Source: Flavobacteriales bacterium (GTDB lineage: Bacteria > Bacteroidota > Bacteroidia > UBA10329). Taken from it: a stretch of 40,851 nt of DNA. The notes beneath the pieces are model-generated. The model had not been told where the DNA came from. It worked only from the letters and a program-made list of their open reading frames with translations, and did no database searches. Both the position numbers and the translations under genes were made by a program. The DNA is taken from positions 1 to 40,851 of the forward strand of contig JAIPBJ010000016.1 in assembly GCA_021739625.1 (NCBI GenBank), given 5' to 3'. Positions 215-7,667 of the stretch are shown piece after piece. Numbering within the stretch: the stretch's first letter is position 1; the number at the start of each line of letters is the position of its first letter.

Positions 215-319
215 TCAGTTTTGTTGTGCCCCCGTGGCGTTGATGTCCACATGCCAGCGGGCGGCCTCTGACGAAAGGGCAATGAGGGTAAAAGAAAGGA
301 GGAAAGGGACTGTTCTCAT
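215..319 (-). pseudogene. 34-codon remnant of a secreted surface protein (signal peptide plus first mature residues)
   Basis: A short frame begins with ATG at 319 and ends at a TGA 34 codons later. It encodes a good signal peptide (MRTVPFLLSFTLIALSSEA) followed by ARWHVDINATGAQQN. The piece RWHVDINATGA resembles the start of the mature part of large Bacteroidota surface proteins with right-handed beta-helix domains, where it is normally followed by NGTSWA-type sequence. Here the stop comes exactly where that would begin. The simplest reading is a truncated or deleted gene whose export signal survives. A real tiny secreted peptide is possible but less likely. The family comparison is from memory. 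Confidence 0.4.
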
Positions 320-373: not shown

Positions 374-1369
374 TCAATCATGCCACAAATATTTGAGGTT
401 CGGCATCTGGTCGGCTATGCGGTGGGCTTCTTCTGCGGTCACATTCGTACCCACGAGGTACAATAATTGCAGTTTGCGCAGATTGATGAGTTCATCAGGC
501 AGTTTCTCAATCGGATATAAATGAAGACTCAGGGCTTCAAGGTCTTTCATGTCAAGAATCCCCTTGGGAAACTCCTTCACACCCACTTTGCCTGCCAATC
601 CTTCAATCCACAGATACTTGATGTGCTCCAACCCCCGAAGCTCATTGGGGATATCCACATTGCAATCGTAAATCCTCAACCAGATCAGGTCCTGAAACAC
701 AGACAGGTCGCCCTCTATCAGGACGGTCGGCTCTTCATCGTCAGGGCCACCGGTGCCTGCAATGTCAAGTTCCCTCAAGTTGGAGTGCTTGGACAGAAGC
801 CCTGGGAACCTCATCGCTCCTCTCAGGTGCAGTACCACTCTCTCTATCTCCTGATGGTGTGCATACGGGTAAAGCAATGGGTCCTCAACGAAAGGATAGA
901 AATGCAGTTCATGGATCCGCACTTGTTTCGGCTGGCTGGGGGAGGCACATATCGTTCTATGTGGGGTTCCCTTCTTGGAATACGGGAATCTTCTCTTCTC
1001 GGGATACACATCGGCTGGAAGAAAACTGAAGGCACTGGAGTACAGCCTGAAAGTTTCGTGTTTTCGGGGCCTTGTGCGATTGGTTTGGATAATGTTCTGG
1101 GCCGCTGTTTTTACGAAAATCGTATCCATGCACTGGTATAATATCTTAATTCTTTTACGGTATAAGGCCGTTGCGAAGTACTTGTCAATGAGCCATGATG
1201 CTGGCCTTCCCTTGCGTGTCCGTTTATATTTCGCATCGTTAAGTGTGCCCTCATGCCAAGCACCGTGACAGGATAACCTCATGGCCTCCTGAGCATGACA
1301 ATTTACGGCATCAAGAAAAAAAAATCCGATGACCAATGCGAAGGGTAGATATGTCCGGAAAGCCCTCAT
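374..1369 (-). CDS. Exported leucine-rich-repeat protein
   Basis: A 331-residue product is read from the ATG at 1369. A TTG six bases upstream would overlap the stop of the preceding gene, but the ATG gives a cleaner signal peptide: MRAFRTYLPFALVIGFFFLD, ending near CHAQ. The middle (about 30-170) is charged and shows no domain I recognise. From about 180 to the end there are degenerate leucine-rich repeats: SNLRELDIAG, QDLIWLRIYD, EHIKYLWIEG, KDLEALSLHL, RKLQLLYLVG and PNLKYLWHD. Such repeats normally bind proteins, so a periplasmic or surface binding role is inferred. The ATG lies 2 nt past the protease stop codon, so the two genes are very likely co-transcribed and translationally coupled. 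Confidence 0.8.
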   Translation of the reverse strand: MRAFRTYLPFALVIGFFFLDAVNCHAQEAMRLSCHGAWHEGTLNDAKYKRTRKGRPASWLIDKYFATALYRKRIKILYQCMDTIFVKTAAQNIIQTNRTRPRKHETFRLYSSAFSFLPADVYPEKRRFPYSKKGTPHRTICASPSQPKQVRIHELHFYPFVEDPLLYPYAHHQEIERVVLHLRGAMRFPGLLSKHSNLRELDIAGTGGPDDEEPTVLIEGDLSVFQDLIWLRIYDCNVDIPNELRGLEHIKYLWIEGLAGKVGVKEFPKGILDMKDLEALSLHLYPIEKLPDELINLRKLQLLYLVGTNVTAEEAHRIADQMPNLKYLWHD

Positions 1370-1371
1370 GA

Positions 1372-3213
1372 TCAATACATCAAAAGCGCGTTAGAGTGTA
1401 CGCTGTTCTCATTGTCTCGCATGATCTTCGCGAGATTGCCTGTGCCGGGCTCACTGAACGAGATGACCGTAAAGAACTTCCCCGACCTCAAGGTAGGATT
1501 TACAAAAGTCCGTTGTGCCGTCTTCGTCACCAGATTGGAATCGGAGTTCTTGGTTTTACCGGCTCTGGTAAACCGATCCGATAGATTATTGGGGCCGTCA
1601 TAGAGGTTGTCCCCTCTCACTACATGACAAAACACATGGCGGTTCTCTGATGTGGGCACATCAGTGGTGGCGAAGCTCAACGAACCATCCCCGTTGTGAA
1701 GGAACAGCCCGATGCCGGGAGTGGGGTTCCTGTTTTCAAAGTTAGCCATTGCCTGGCCTCCCAAGTAAGTGAACTGATGAACAGGCAGCACCTCAATGCT
1801 CTGATCAAGTACGACCTCCAGCTGTGCGTTCGTCACGCAGTCGGTGTGCGGCACACTCATCAGGTTGTCCCTGAAATCATACTGCCTGTCATGGCTGCCG
1901 GGAAGAAGCATGGGCATGAAACCTCCCCAGCTGTCCGGATCGCTTGGGTCGCTTGGGCCACCATTGACATTCAAAATCTTCTCGTCTCTGTAAACCTGAT
2001 AATAATGGTATCTGTCCTGAAGACCCAACATGTGCCCGAACTCATGGGCAGGCATATTGCCGTGGGTGTCGAAAATTCCTGTTCTCGTGAAGTATCCCTG
2101 AAAATAGCCAAGACATGCGTAGCTGCGAACTGAGCGGTCGGCATGGGTGGGATCGGTATCAACGATCGGGAAAGTAACGGGGTCATCAACCGTGATGACG
2201 AGGTCATATTCATTCGGGTTTGCATTTTCGGGGATCGGCCCCTCAACATAGTCAATTGAAACAGTTAATCTGGTCTGTGTGCCGTCAGGGGCCACATAGG
2301 TCAGACCATCCCATATCTCGGTGATGTTATCGATGATACGGTCGGCCATGTTCTTCAACTGTTGCTCGGTCACGCCTGTGTACACCTCGTGGGGTATGAG
2401 GTAGAGGCAGAGCGCGAGGTTGTTGCGCATGGGCGGGGGCTGCGTCTGTTGCGTACCGTTGCCGTCTTTCATCGACATGGCAGCGGGCGGCTCCGGGCTC
2501 TCGATGCTGGCGGGGTAGTGCAGGCTTATACTACCGTCATCGGTGGCATGGGCCAGCAGATGATAGGGTGTGAGCCTGCCATTGGCATATCTGTAAACCA
2601 TGGCAGGAGCGGCCACGGGCCCCATCGCTCCGATGCCGCCCCCAATGGCCGATGACGGGCTGATGCGGTCTGTGAGTTCCTCCCGTTTGACGGGCAGCAT
2701 ACTGTAGCGGATGGCGTTGAGCACACCCTGCACCGTGATGCGCAGGAACAGCTCCCAGCCCTCCACGCGCACAGGCTCGCTGTCCTTGTCGGGGCGAACC
2801 TCCACGCGATAGGTGATGTCCCAGGCCAGCTGCCTCCGGTCGGAAGGACTCACATAGGGCACGCAGGTTTCCAACTTGAGCAGCTCTGTCTGGAACAGCC
2901 GTGGGAAGCTCTGCGCCCTGTGGGCAGGGCCGTTTGCCGCTCGGTCATTGAACCGCTGGAAGAGCATCCCGGCCACTTCCACGGCCTTGTCCATGTCGCC
3001 CGCATCTTCGGTGCGCCCGGGCGCGAGGCTGACCACAGGGTTCTCAAAACTCCAGTAGCCTGTCCGGGCACTCATGGAGAAACGGTAACCAGCACCCTCA
3101 TTGGTGCTTCCCCTCATACCGAACAGCCCCTTTATGAGGCTTTCGGCCCTCACCATGGTGGCCGGACTTTCGGTCTCGTATATGAGGATGCGAGGCATGA
3201 TTCCGTCAAGCAT
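1372..3213 (-). CDS. Metzincin-like zinc metalloprotease, cytoplasmic-looking N-terminus
   Basis: The 613-residue protein carries HEFGHMLGLQD at residues 390-400. This fits the extended zinc motif HExxHxxGxxD, with two His and an Asp as ligands and Glu391 as catalytic base. About 60 residues later DNLMSVP could supply the Met-turn of metzincins. The N-terminal 300 residues (MPRILIYETESPATM onward) have no signal peptide or membrane segment and no domain I recognise. The C-terminus is beta-rich with GIGLFLHNGDGSLSF. The first ATG (3213) overlaps the upstream stop by 8 nt; an ATG at 3198 is an alternative. The substrate is unknown; the operon partners (the 1002-aa protein or the LRR protein) are natural candidates for processing, by inference only. 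Confidence 0.82.
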   Translation of the reverse strand: MLDGIMPRILIYETESPATMVRAESLIKGLFGMRGSTNEGAGYRFSMSARTGYWSFENPVVSLAPGRTEDAGDMDKAVEVAGMLFQRFNDRAANGPAHRAQSFPRLFQTELLKLETCVPYVSPSDRRQLAWDITYRVEVRPDKDSEPVRVEGWELFLRITVQGVLNAIRYSMLPVKREELTDRISPSSAIGGGIGAMGPVAAPAMVYRYANGRLTPYHLLAHATDDGSISLHYPASIESPEPPAAMSMKDGNGTQQTQPPPMRNNLALCLYLIPHEVYTGVTEQQLKNMADRIIDNITEIWDGLTYVAPDGTQTRLTVSIDYVEGPIPENANPNEYDLVITVDDPVTFPIVDTDPTHADRSVRSYACLGYFQGYFTRTGIFDTHGNMPAHEFGHMLGLQDRYHYYQVYRDEKILNVNGGPSDPSDPDSWGGFMPMLLPGSHDRQYDFRDNLMSVPHTDCVTNAQLEVVLDQSIEVLPVHQFTYLGGQAMANFENRNPTPGIGLFLHNGDGSLSFATTDVPTSENRHVFCHVVRGDNLYDGPNNLSDRFTRAGKTKNSDSNLVTKTAQRTFVNPTLRSGKFFTVISFSEPGTGNLAKIMRDNENSVHSNALLMY

Positions 3214-6200
3214 TCAAATCCACCCCGTCCAGTTCACCGTCCTCAAACCTCTCCTCCGAATAGTCGGGCAGGTGCTGGTAAGGTGCATTGGGGCCTTCCA
3301 TGTCCGTTGGCAGCGTCACCAGCGAGGTAGGCATCTTGATGACCCACGGGTCGCCAACGGGCTGGGGCTCCAGTTCAAGCGCTTCCAGATTGCCAAGGTC
3401 GTCCATGATCCGGAGGGCACGGTCGCTGGTCAGCGGCACATCCTCGCCCGCCCACACATTGCCCGTATCAAGGAAATGGAGCATGGAGGCGGTCATGGCC
3501 GGGGTGACCGGCACCAGCACCTTCGCCATGCCTGCCCGCAGGAAGTGGGTGAAGTCCGGATCGGCCTGTTCGCCCAGCATCTTCATCTTGTCCACCCAGC
3601 CCGGTTTGCGGCCATAGAAATAGGGGTAGAGTTCATAAGTCAGGTTGTCCCACTCCACGGCCTTCTCGAAGAAGGAGGCGTAGCGGCCCTCCTCCTCTGC
3701 CTTCGCGAAGAGGAATTGCGGATAGCCGAAGGGGTTGTGATTGTTGCGCATGGCGCTGAACGCCTCGAACCGCTGCCCGGTGATGGCCTCCAGCGCGGAA
3801 CGCTTCAGTTCCTCGCGCATGATCGCCTGATTGATGCCGGGGTTGTTGCCACTGATGTCCACCCCAGAGTTGATGGCCGCAGCGGTCACCTTGTTCTCAT
3901 AGTCTGAGAGTTTGGCACGGTATCCCTGCACGATGGAGTTGTAGGTCTTGATGCGCCATTCGTCATAGAGAATCTGGGAGCGTATGCAACGAACCTCCAC
4001 AGTGACCATCGCTGAAATGTTGCGGGTCTTCATAAAAACGAAAGGGACAGTCTCCGTCTCATTGTCCAGTCCGTACCACCATCCGGGACTTCCTATCCAA
4101 TGGTTACCCACCCTCGCTTGAAGGCTACCCCCATCGGTTCCCTGAAGTTTCACGCAGGCATCATGCGCCAGATAGCCTTTGGGCACTGCCAAGGAATTCT
4201 CCACCGTGGTGAGGTGATAGACTCCACTGGCGACATCCGCACCGAGGCTATCTTCCCCGAATGCCTTGTTGACCCATGTGTACTGAGGAGGAGGTGGCGT
4301 TAGGTCAGCGACATCATAGAGTGCCCCGAAACCACCATAATTCCCTTCGTTGATACTTTCAAAGGTCTGTATTCCTGCATTCTCCAACGTCATTGGCGGT
4401 TCGAACTCACCCTTCTGTGCCTGAGACATGCTGTAGAGATAGAAGGCGGCCGGTTCGGGGATGTGCAACTCCATCATCATCCGCTTGCCGTAGTTCAGCA
4501 GACGGGTAAGGTAGAGTTTGTCCACCCAGGTATAGACCCCGGATATGTTGCCGTTGCCTGTCGGCACATTTGTGAAACCATGACTGTTCTTCTCCACCAC
4601 CTCCTCTATGCGGATGGAGGTACGTTCTACCCGTACACGCTCTGTGACGCGGTTGAGGGCCCTGCTGGTGACCTCCTGCGCATAGGAGGATGCGGACTGC
4701 GTGGAATTGGTCTGAGAGTTGGATGTTCCATAGCCGAAGGTGGCCCCCACGGTGACGACACCGCCATAGCTTGCCGTGAGCGATGCGCCCACCTGCATCT
4801 GGCTCTGTTGTGATATGACGCTGCTGCTGGCCTGTTCAAGGCTGAAGCGGTCGGTGGTCTGCAGGTCGCGCTCTTCGAAGGTGGTCCGCTCGGTCTCGGT
4901 GGTGGAGCGTTCTTCCAGTCTGCGGGTGTGGGTGTGTTCGCGATTGCGGGTCTCACCCTCCAACACGTTCTCTATATGGGCCACCTCACCGGGCTGGTAG
5001 CGTATGAGCTGCCGTCTGGTGAGGAGGAGGTCGCCTACATACAGGCTCTGGACATTGCCTTTGGTGCGTGGCATGGGGCCTCCGTTATACGAACCGCAGG
5101 GATCCTTTTCCATGGTGGCATTGCAGACGATGTTGTCCAAAAAGAACACGGCACCATTCAGCAGTACGGCTTCCTGCTGCCCTCTGCGATATTCTTTGTT
5201 CCATCGCTTGGAGAGCACATGTCCAAGCTTCTTGGACGCAGCGGGCACATCGAGGTCGGTGAGCTGTATGGCCTGCTCGGTCAGCAGGTTGCGGGTATCG
5301 GCCTTCAGTTGCTGCACGAATGCCTCGCGCAGTTTCCACGGTACCTTGACGGTAGAGGAGGGTGATGAGCGCTTGAGCGCGGGACGCTCTTCCAGTCCGC
5401 TGGTGATGGCCGGCTCCTGACGCTGCTGCTCCTCCCGCAACGCTGCATACTGTTGTTCCATCACCTCATCCATGTCTGCAATCGCATCCTGCACCCGGTC
5501 TGAGAATGCGAACAGGTCTGTGTTGTCGGGTCGTGTCGGCACCGGGGCAGGGTCGGACACATCAGGCACAGCCACCTCTGGCACGGGGAATACCGTTGTG
5601 GGCAGCACCGTGCGCATCGCCCTCCAGTTCACATGGTCGCGAAGTAGATCGGTGGACGGGGCCACACTGTTCAACACTTCCAATACACGAACCATCCTCA
5701 CGACCTTGACAAGGTCTTCGCGCAGGCTTATGTCGGAGGGGGCGATAAGCTGAGCAAACAGGTTGTCCCATAGCCGCAGGTGGGCTTCGGGATGGTCTGC
5801 ATCGATCACAATGTCACTGATGCTCTGACCGAGGGCATCCTCAATGGCAGTTACCGCTTCGTCCACCGTGGTGGCAGGGGCAGGTGTGTTCAGATAGGCG
5901 TGTACATGGTCGAATCCACCGAACGCGGCATAGAGTGCTGCACGGTCGGGTATGAAATGGGGCGTGACCCGGAAATCCTGAGCGAGTTGCACGGCCTCTG
6001 GTCTCATGCCACCTGCACCGATGGAATCCCTAAGCTGGGAATAAAGCAATAGGCCGTTGGCGGCCTCCATAGCGGCAATGGCAGCGGAACCGACACCGGA
6101 ATGCACATGACCATAGTCAATCACATTGTTGCCCGATTCCACGGTTTCGGGAAGATTTGGCGGGCGGACAGAGACAAAGCGGAAAACTTCGGTGATGTGG

Positions 6201-6214
6201 TTCTTGGTCTTCAT
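3206..6214 (-). CDS. Large uncharacterised protein with a Gly/Ser/Thr-rich core between charged helical arms
   Basis: This 1002-residue protein has no signal peptide and heads the minus-strand operon. Residues 1-330 look mostly alpha-helical. Around 390-418 it has LYVGDLLLTRRQL and GEVAHIENV. A highly charged Glu/Arg/Thr-rich stretch (about 420-470) follows, then a Gly/Ser/Thr/Val segment of alternating character (about 473-500, GASLTASYGGVVTVGATFGY). A second charged stretch comes next (about 510-545, EVTSRALNRVTERVRVE), then VYTWVDKLY (about 558-566) and MMELHIPEPAAFYLYS (about 580-595). The last 300 residues are mixed. The symmetry of charged arm, glycine-rich amphipathic core and charged arm is unusual. 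From memory, similar large proteins of unknown function with the VYxWVDK and PEPAAFY signatures exist in diverse bacteria. I assign no function; a membrane-inserting hairpin is one hypothesis. Confidence 0.72.
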   Translation of the reverse strand: MKTKNHITEVFRFVSVRPPNLPETVESGNNVIDYGHVHSGVGSAAIAAMEAANGLLLYSQLRDSIGAGGMRPEAVQLAQDFRVTPHFIPDRAALYAAFGGFDHVHAYLNTPAPATTVDEAVTAIEDALGQSISDIVIDADHPEAHLRLWDNLFAQLIAPSDISLREDLVKVVRMVRVLEVLNSVAPSTDLLRDHVNWRAMRTVLPTTVFPVPEVAVPDVSDPAPVPTRPDNTDLFAFSDRVQDAIADMDEVMEQQYAALREEQQRQEPAITSGLEERPALKRSSPSSTVKVPWKLREAFVQQLKADTRNLLTEQAIQLTDLDVPAASKKLGHVLSKRWNKEYRRGQQEAVLLNGAVFFLDNIVCNATMEKDPCGSYNGGPMPRTKGNVQSLYVGDLLLTRRQLIRYQPGEVAHIENVLEGETRNREHTHTRRLEERSTTETERTTFEERDLQTTDRFSLEQASSSVISQQSQMQVGASLTASYGGVVTVGATFGYGTSNSQTNSTQSASSYAQEVTSRALNRVTERVRVERTSIRIEEVVEKNSHGFTNVPTGNGNISGVYTWVDKLYLTRLLNYGKRMMMELHIPEPAAFYLYSMSQAQKGEFEPPMTLENAGIQTFESINEGNYGGFGALYDVADLTPPPPQYTWVNKAFGEDSLGADVASGVYHLTTVENSLAVPKGYLAHDACVKLQGTDGGSLQARVGNHWIGSPGWWYGLDNETETVPFVFMKTRNISAMVTVEVRCIRSQILYDEWRIKTYNSIVQGYRAKLSDYENKVTAAAINSGVDISGNNPGINQAIMREELKRSALEAITGQRFEAFSAMRNNHNPFGYPQFLFAKAEEEGRYASFFEKAVEWDNLTYELYPYFYGRKPGWVDKMKMLGEQADPDFTHFLRAGMAKVLVPVTPAMTASMLHFLDTGNVWAGEDVPLTSDRALRIMDDLGNLEALELEPQPVGDPWVIKMPTSLVTLPTDMEGPNAPYQHLPDYSEERFEDGELDGVDLNA

Positions 6215-6460
6215 AGCTCTTGGGATGGGTTATCGGTCTTGAAGTATGGGGAACATTCTCGTTTCACGGGGCGACATGGATGAGATATGACAAGTGTAGA
6301 AATAAATTCGGAGATATGTCCAAAAAAAAACGTAGTGCTTCAATTGCTCCGTCAAACTCTGTTCAGGCAAGATGGCTTCACAGACAGAGACTTCGGTTCT
6401 GTTCAAATAGGCCGGTTGCGTTGAGTCGTGCGGAGCAGGCTCAGGGATGGGGGCGAGAGG

Positions 6461-6519
6461 TTATTGCAAAGGCAATAAGCTCCCTTCGGTCGGTTGCTTC
6501 GCTCCGCTCGCAATGACGC
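6461..6519. repeat. Intergenic repeat-like element with hairpin
   Basis: This lies in the 433-bp gap between the divergent 1002-aa and 339-aa genes. It starts with a perfect 7-bp stem and 4-nt loop (TTATTGC-AAAG-GCAATAA, 6461-6478). It continues into a stretch whose minus strand reads GTCATTGCGAGCGGAGCGAA followed by GCAACCG. From memory, GTCATTGCGAG...GAAGCAA is a common dispersed intergenic repeat in many bacterial genomes. Only one copy is visible here, so the assignment rests on recognition. The rest of the gap (6215-6460 and 6520-6595) holds no gene I can support. Confidence 0.5.
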
Positions 6520-6595
6520 GGGGGGAAGTGTGAACAGATGTTAAAAGGCGAAATTTTTTTCATGGAGTTGAAATATATTGGGCAGAGATGCGTTA

Positions 6596-6647: not shown

Positions 6648-7667
6648 ATGAATACGCGACCCACCGCAGAGTATAACTGCACGACCGCCCAGCTGTATGT
6701 GATCGCCCGCACGTGCTGGAACAGCCATAGGGATAACCAGCAGTCGTTCGAGGACTTCAACACGACCTACACGGCCCAGAACACACAGGATGCGCTGGCG
6801 GAGATTGACGCAGCGGCCGCGCTGCCGATGTTCCAATCGCGGAACGAGGCGACCGAGAGCACATACGTAGGGATGCAGGCAGCGGCCCGACTGGGCCTGA
6901 AGCAATGGAAGTATCTGCGCAACTACATCAGAGCATCATATATAAAGGACCTGAGGAAGGCGAAGTGGGAGAGTGCGGGCCGTGACCGCTATGATAAGGC
7001 CACGAACAACAACTGGGGCGAGCTGCTGCTGATGTTGGACGCGGGGAAGAGTTTCATTGCGAGTAACGGTGTGGAGCTTGCGGCAGGGGGGATGCCTGCG
7101 AATTTCCCTCAGCAGTATAACGATGCTCGGAACACATTCATTCTGCTCCACACAGATTTCCTGGACTTTGGACAGGACGAGCTGGAGGGGACGGATGCGA
7201 AGACGTTGGCGAACAACGCGGTGTACCGTAGGATGATGGACATGAACGAGGACGGGCAGCTGGTGTTCGATGAGGAGCCTGCGAAGGCCCAACGGTTCGT
7301 GTTTCAGAGTGTGAAGGACATGATCACCCATCAGGGAGGCGGAGGGGAGCAGCCGCTGCCCGGGACGGAACTGAAGGTGACGGGTGTGATGTCTGAAGCG
7401 CTGACGGGGTCACCGCTGCCGAACCGGGCCGTGAACCTGACGCTGATGCTGCCCGATGGGCCCTTGCAAAGGCAGGTGATGACGAGTGCGCTGGGAGTTT
7501 ACCTGCTGGAGGAGAAGGAACTGCCTGCAAACACGTCCTTCGATCTTGTGACCAAGGTGAACGAGCCGGGCTTCATGCCCTATAGCAGCACCATGGGTGT
7601 GACGAGCGGAGCGAGCTACAGCGAAGACATTGAGTTGACGCCTGAGGCGCCCCCACCAGGGGCGTGA
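6648..7667 (+). CDS. Uncharacterised protein with C-terminal carboxypeptidase-regulatory-like domain
   Basis: The 339-residue product has no signal peptide. Residues 1-230 look alpha-helical (AAARLGLKQWKYLRNYIR, MTHQ-type helices, FVFQSVKDMI). After a Gly-rich linker (HQGGGGEQPLPG, about 228) there is a beta-sandwich-like tail: LKVTGVMSEALTGSPLPNRA, then GPLQRQVMTSALGVYLLEE and ending YSEDIELTPEAP. That tail has the V-x-D/E-x-x-T-x-x-P-L-x-x-A layout of carboxypeptidase regulatory-like / SdrD-B-like domains that Bacteroidota attach to many proteins. The gene is divergent from the 1002-aa/protease/LRR operon with 433 bp between, so a shared control region and role are possible. Low-complexity PPPGA closes the protein. 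Function unknown. Confidence 0.7.
   Translation: MNTRPTAEYNCTTAQLYVIARTCWNSHRDNQQSFEDFNTTYTAQNTQDALAEIDAAAALPMFQSRNEATESTYVGMQAAARLGLKQWKYLRNYIRASYIKDLRKAKWESAGRDRYDKATNNNWGELLLMLDAGKSFIASNGVELAAGGMPANFPQQYNDARNTFILLHTDFLDFGQDELEGTDAKTLANNAVYRRMMDMNEDGQLVFDEEPAKAQRFVFQSVKDMITHQGGGGEQPLPGTELKVTGVMSEALTGSPLPNRAVNLTLMLPDGPLQRQVMTSALGVYLLEEKELPANTSFDLVTKVNEPGFMPYSSTMGVTSGASYSEDIELTPEAPPPGA

Follow-up and report, generated by a model that had tools for sequence, protein, structure and literature searches.

Among described systems, those closest to the gene module reported here are the polymorphic toxin systems (Zhang et al. 2012; PMC3482391), in which, as at the loci considered below, a conserved part is accompanied by variable toxin modules from the same list of toxin families, by SUKH immunity genes and, at some loci, by extra toxin cassettes. 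Here, we describe a three-gene operon of a Flavobacteriales bacterium (assembly GCA_021739625.1), situated on the minus strand of a 40,851-nucleotide stretch of DNA (contig JAIPBJ010000016.1, positions 1 to 40,851; hereafter ‘the window’), together with the wider family of loci to which it belongs. The operon encodes a large protein, BIG; a zinc-peptidase-like protein, PROT, bearing an N-terminal domain that we call ND; and a protein with leucine-rich repeats (LRR protein). BIG is probably the conserved vehicle, or an essential partner, of a polymorphic-toxin module that is directed against other cells and equipped with interchangeable cargo. The polymorphic-toxin logic itself is already known. 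The BIG carrier family and its partner domain, ND, seem to be new to the libraries consulted and to the open-access literature, in which (subscription papers and preprints lying outside the search) no description of BIG-like carriers was found.

The preliminary description of this DNA had reported three overlapping or abutting open reading frames (ORFs), and their coordinates, order and junctions were confirmed. BIG (3206-6214, minus strand; 1002 amino acids) is the first gene of the unit and overlaps the PROT gene (1372-3213, minus strand; 613 amino acids) by 8 nt, and the LRR gene (374-1375, minus strand) encodes 333 amino acids from a TTG or 331 from an ATG at 1369, the latter beginning 2 nt past the PROT stop codon. 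The signal peptide noted for the third product alone is in line with its N-terminus, the only strongly hydrophobic one of the three (best 10-residue mean 2.89 vs 1.32 and 1.30 for the other two; a measure distinct from SignalP).

The window's BIG matches no Pfam, NCBIfam, PHROGs or PADLOC family, in keeping with its initial listing as a large unknown protein. Even so, 9/99 related genomes encode homologues, as do 11/296 genomes from the phylum, and a scan of genome_contigs with a degenerate pattern (one genome per species) returned at least 590 candidates, among which at least 441 loci encode BIG relatives. Among the best 80 relatives are proteins of Bacteroidota, Actinomycetota, Pseudomonadota, Bacillota, Cyanobacteriota, Chloroflexota and Verrucomicrobiota, and of the archaea Methanoperedens and Natrarchaeobius. 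Fifteen plasmid records hold BIG. A phage origin as a rule was rejected, as BIG occurs in none of the 50,697 records of the phage collection and in only four viral contigs. Cargo of the type IX secretion system was likewise rejected as a general rule, because the BIG family reaches far beyond Bacteroidota.

The gene that follows BIG is the variable part of these loci. Neighbours were counted at 94 distinct BIG loci with a callable downstream gene and at 89 with a callable upstream gene. The downstream neighbour lies on the same strand in 92/94 cases and within 100 nt in 76/94, vs 56/89 and 27/89 for the upstream neighbour, and where BIG is split, its N-terminal half accounts for some of the upstream neighbours. 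Among 86 first downstream genes compared with Pfam, the matches were patatin (thirteen), Trypco1 (five), M23 (four) and PAD (two), followed by single matches to Amidase_3, PLD, Het-C, Tox-MPTase4, Toxin-deaminase, CdiA_C tRNase, PT-TG and EndoU; some other single matches, PPK2 and amine oxidase among them, look like unrelated neighbours. Second downstream genes add Het-C (three), Gln_amidase toxin, Tox-MPTase4, WHH nuclease and SUKH immunity families. The upstream control gave a housekeeping-type mix of 107 families over 124 genes, with two patatins. This pattern is non-circular, since the loci were selected through BIG and not through their cargo, and toxin-like genes that vary behind BIG bear out the earlier guess at a toxin-type module.

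Some of this cargo also brings to mind an intracellular anti-phage or suicide system, in which BIG would sense attack and activate the downstream enzyme, and the host cell would be killed or stalled. Patatin occurs in 13/86 loci, and NCBIfam models of CBASS and anti-phage lipases match it weakly; Trypco1, found in 5/86, is a domain that takes its name from conflict systems (PMC7159879); and a signal peptide is missing from BIG and from most of the large cargo proteins. We nevertheless hold such a system to be unlikely: cell-wall hydrolases, CdiA-type tRNase, EndoU, toxin deaminase and SUKH typify toxins aimed at other cells, PADLOC gives no match for the window's BIG, and the third protein of the window is predicted to be exported.

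Two further groups of cargo-type proteins were noted by eye. Those of L112:12086-14416 and L090:14300-15397 carry ‘FFSHG..GP’ and a later Gly-Cys, which gives them the look of a clan CD (caspase-like) peptidase; the L112 protein has no Pfam match. In L045:7484-9046, L142:6999-8585 and L143:6956-8545, the gene after BIG looks like one for a protein of phage tail-fibre type (‘IYQVAAPGAATYTDYAID’), again with no Pfam match, and its product could be a targeting part.

Cargo is exchanged between closely related carriers. Between L047 and L049, BIG is 71% identical along its full length, and the cargo proteins have no detectable similarity. Between L018 and L022, BIG identity is 58%, and the similarity of the cargo proteins (L018:1080-3020 and L022:5224-7269) is confined to the first 31 residues, at 64.5% identity; this common stretch may serve as a short tag for delivery. 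In a quick tree built from 80 BIG cores (FastTree, no bootstrap), patatin cargo requires at least eight changes, and phyla are mixed. At L040, the fourth downstream ORF, which is small, repeats the C-terminus of the large cargo encoded two genes earlier and, by analogy, behaves like a spare toxin cassette; none was seen in the window. A conserved component with interchangeable toxin domains, which defines polymorphic toxins, is thus what these loci contain, and in its workings the module resembles a polymorphic toxin system, toxin exchange included, but one with no known export marker.

In the window, the cargo position is held by PROT. Residues 6-186 (2656-3198, minus strand) form the ND domain, found with hmmsearch at E=7e-13 (best of 300 shuffles, E=1.6) using a profile that was built from seven domains encoded downstream of BIG at six loci (L016, L054, L055 [two], L093, L116 and L127), PROT itself being left out. 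ND is joined to differing C-terminal parts or stands alone. An alignment search that included PROT located ND in two scanned genomes, the window's own and G049, in both next to BIG; a degraded ND fragment about 2 kb away is the exception. ND is the confidently folded part of the PROT model, in which pLDDT is below 50 from residue 312 onward.

The other half of PROT is an Asp-type zinc-peptidase-like region. Its motif HEFGHMLGLQD (residues 390-400; 2014-2046, minus strand) provides the predicted zinc ligands H390, H394 and D400 and the catalytic E391, as the preliminary description had said, and conforms to the M6/metzincin pattern HExxHxxGxx(H/D); a candidate Met-turn, NLM at residues 450-452 (M452; 1858-1866, minus strand), is placed by position only. 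The metzincin call made at the outset retains this motif and candidate Met-turn, but the match to the NCBIfam M6 domain TIGR03296 is far under its cut-off (17.9 bits over 22 residues; cut-off 110.8) and the model of the catalytic half is unreliable. PROT reached no Pfam family and, in a fold search of the Protein Data Bank (PDB), no match at E <= 0.001. A single-sequence search returned no homologue in the 99 relatives, the plasmids or genome_contigs, and one of 395 class genomes returned one 75-residue match, at the zinc motif. A second zinc-peptidase-like cargo (HELAHGLGVNH...NVMDY) stands behind BIG at L049. Because ND is shared with other BIG-linked genes and a peptidase-like cargo recurs at L049, we infer that PROT combines a docking domain, suggested by linkage and shuffling, with a peptidase toxin, suggested by the motif. 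Most likely, PROT is one interchangeable weapon on a shared vehicle that would deliver it.

Genes that overlap or abut would also suit another role for PROT, that of a maturation enzyme cutting BIG or the LRR protein, in line with the processing of the large partner first proposed. We find this very improbable: most BIG loci have no protease in the slot, and ND is linked to differing downstream parts. Processing of the large partner is not a general need of BIG, because phospholipases, nucleases, deaminases or cell-wall hydrolases occupy that position at most loci. BIG and PROT are best read as carrier and toxic cargo rather than as protease and substrate, since PROT sits in the cargo slot and ND is tied to BIG-linked genes.

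The third protein has a hydrophobic N-terminus and C-terminal leucine-rich repeats. Its original naming as an LRR protein is upheld by an LRR-type match, but the match is weak (LRR_14, 32 bits vs a cut-off of 40). The three genes are not conserved as a trio: BIG and a variable cargo gene stay together, but no other BIG locus encodes a relative of the LRR protein, and its matches outside BIG loci are restricted to the repeats. Judged by these comparisons, the LRR protein is locus-specific. SUKH immunity families occur among the second downstream genes at other loci, and the LRR gene of the window belongs to no known immunity family. From its position and predicted export, we suggest tentatively that it serves as an immunity protein or a surface helper.

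An AlphaFold2 model of BIG, computed from 80 sequences (pLDDT 77, pTM 0.66), predicts, in order, a helical N-terminal module (residues 1-350; 5165-6214, minus strand), two long strands and a helical hairpin (together residues 386-590; 4445-5059, minus strand; very charge-rich), and a beta-sandwich, helices and a C-terminal alpha/beta domain (residues 645-967; 3314-4282, minus strand), this last segment containing many of the family's most conserved Trp, Tyr, Phe and Gly residues. The hairpin region aligns in 80/80 BIG sequences; charged residues make up about 41% of its flanks, 25% overall and 9% of its core. The charge-poor tip (residues 477-497; 4724-4786, minus strand) is poorly modelled and could possibly insert into a membrane or a partner. 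A strong amphipathic-strand signal in the tip was tested and rejected as not exceptional. PDB and viral fold searches with the model gave no match at E <= 0.001. PDB sequence matches of the BIG profile to LSD1 and nsp8 (best E=0.0056, inside the helical N-terminal part) were dismissed because they are weak and of the helical, coiled-coil type that arises by chance. In Legionella and other lineages, BIG is seemingly encoded by two adjacent genes (L068:8977-11917, L071, L072, L083, L099, L107, L114 and L115), one for an N-terminal part of about 270-420 amino acids and one for the C-terminal remainder; where BIG ORFs are shorter, as in Legionella and at some further loci, the N-terminal module seems to be carried separately by an upstream ORF.

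Most BIG N-termini do not resemble signal peptides (median of the best 10-residue mean, 1.03), nor do most large cargo proteins have a signal-peptide-like start. Another explanation would make BIG the cargo of, or an adaptor for, a contractile injection system of a known kind, whose genes would lie elsewhere in the genome and which would deliver BIG and its partner. The broad spread of BIG through bacteria and archaea would suit such a system, as would a gp19-like tail-tube gene in 7/18 BIG-positive vs 4/27 other genomes, counts uncorrected for relatedness; but no tail genes recur near BIG, and the tail-tube gene is absent from the window's genome (G000, 96% complete) and from 10 other BIG-positive genomes. 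A contractile system is therefore not required, and we rate this explanation as quite improbable. On two viral contigs, BIG (L140:10715-11841 and L141:780-1794) has a phage holin gene and a lysin gene (Amidase_3 or CHAP) in its vicinity, and tail-type genes follow at a greater distance; L140 has the appearance of a prophage that carries the toxin module. These neighbours would allow release by lysis, of which the two cases are a hint.

A vehicle with exchangeable cargo could then work as follows. The gene after BIG would supply the swappable cargo, here the zinc-peptidase-like protein bearing ND; ND would, most likely, dock this cargo to BIG, and the cargo would be delivered into another cell. 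The LRR protein, exported to the envelope, would most likely protect the producer or act at the surface. In the least certain step, BIG, released by a route that needs no signal peptide, such as lysis, would itself form the conduit by way of its charge-poor hairpin; alternatively, it may assist a separate exporter. Several points weigh against this proposal. We know of no experiment on any member of the BIG family. BIG loci carry no known export marker, no export gene recurs next to BIG, and the window's genome is among those without the tail-tube marker. Many genes downstream of BIG have no Pfam match, and patatin, Trypco1 and nucleotidyltransferase-like cargo also fit intracellular immunity, the patatin cargo weakly matching anti-phage phospholipases. 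The beta-amphipathicity of the hairpin is average (62nd percentile), and the predicted structure of the metzincin half of PROT is too unreliable to confirm a zincin fold. The boldest version, in which BIG, common to bacteria and archaea, founds a class of its own among toxin vehicles, stands alone, has a fold that resembles no solved structure and by itself carries docked enzymes across the membrane of other cells, we consider doubtful.

Around the operon, a 34-codon ORF (216-319, minus strand) has a signal-peptide-like start and the sequence ‘...RWHVDINATGAQQN’, and looks like the truncated beginning of a larger exported adhesin-type protein. Upstream of BIG, a ‘CGTCATTGCGAGCGGAGCGAAGCAACC’ element at 6460-6520 is similar to the REP-like repeats that are common, and a divergent gene of 339 amino acids (6648-7667) matches no Pfam or NCBIfam family.

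A protein unnamed in curated libraries, present at hundreds of loci in many bacterial phyla and some archaea, flags the next gene as a likely toxin and gives a direct route to toxins and immunity proteins not yet described. The delivery of signal-less toxins also becomes a testable question, and a new delivery route would be added if cargo is carried into cells by BIG itself. Unlike in polymorphic toxin systems, BIG is mostly a separate protein, so that the conserved part is not the N-terminus of the toxin, and its loci are without known export markers. PROT resembles the M6 and other Asp-type zinc peptidases in its HExxHxxGxxD motif and later methionine, but scores far under the M6 cut-off, and its fold is unconfirmed. 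Extracellular contractile injection systems have no tail-gene counterpart at the BIG locus and no tail-tube marker in the window's genome, but share with BIG loci a wide spread, diverse toxic cargo and the absence of signal peptides. Binary or two-component toxins, as generally known, differ in that BIG lacks a signal peptide, matches no solved component by sequence or by fold, and comes with far more varied cargo; in both, however, a large protein that is a possible conduit is paired with a separately encoded enzyme.
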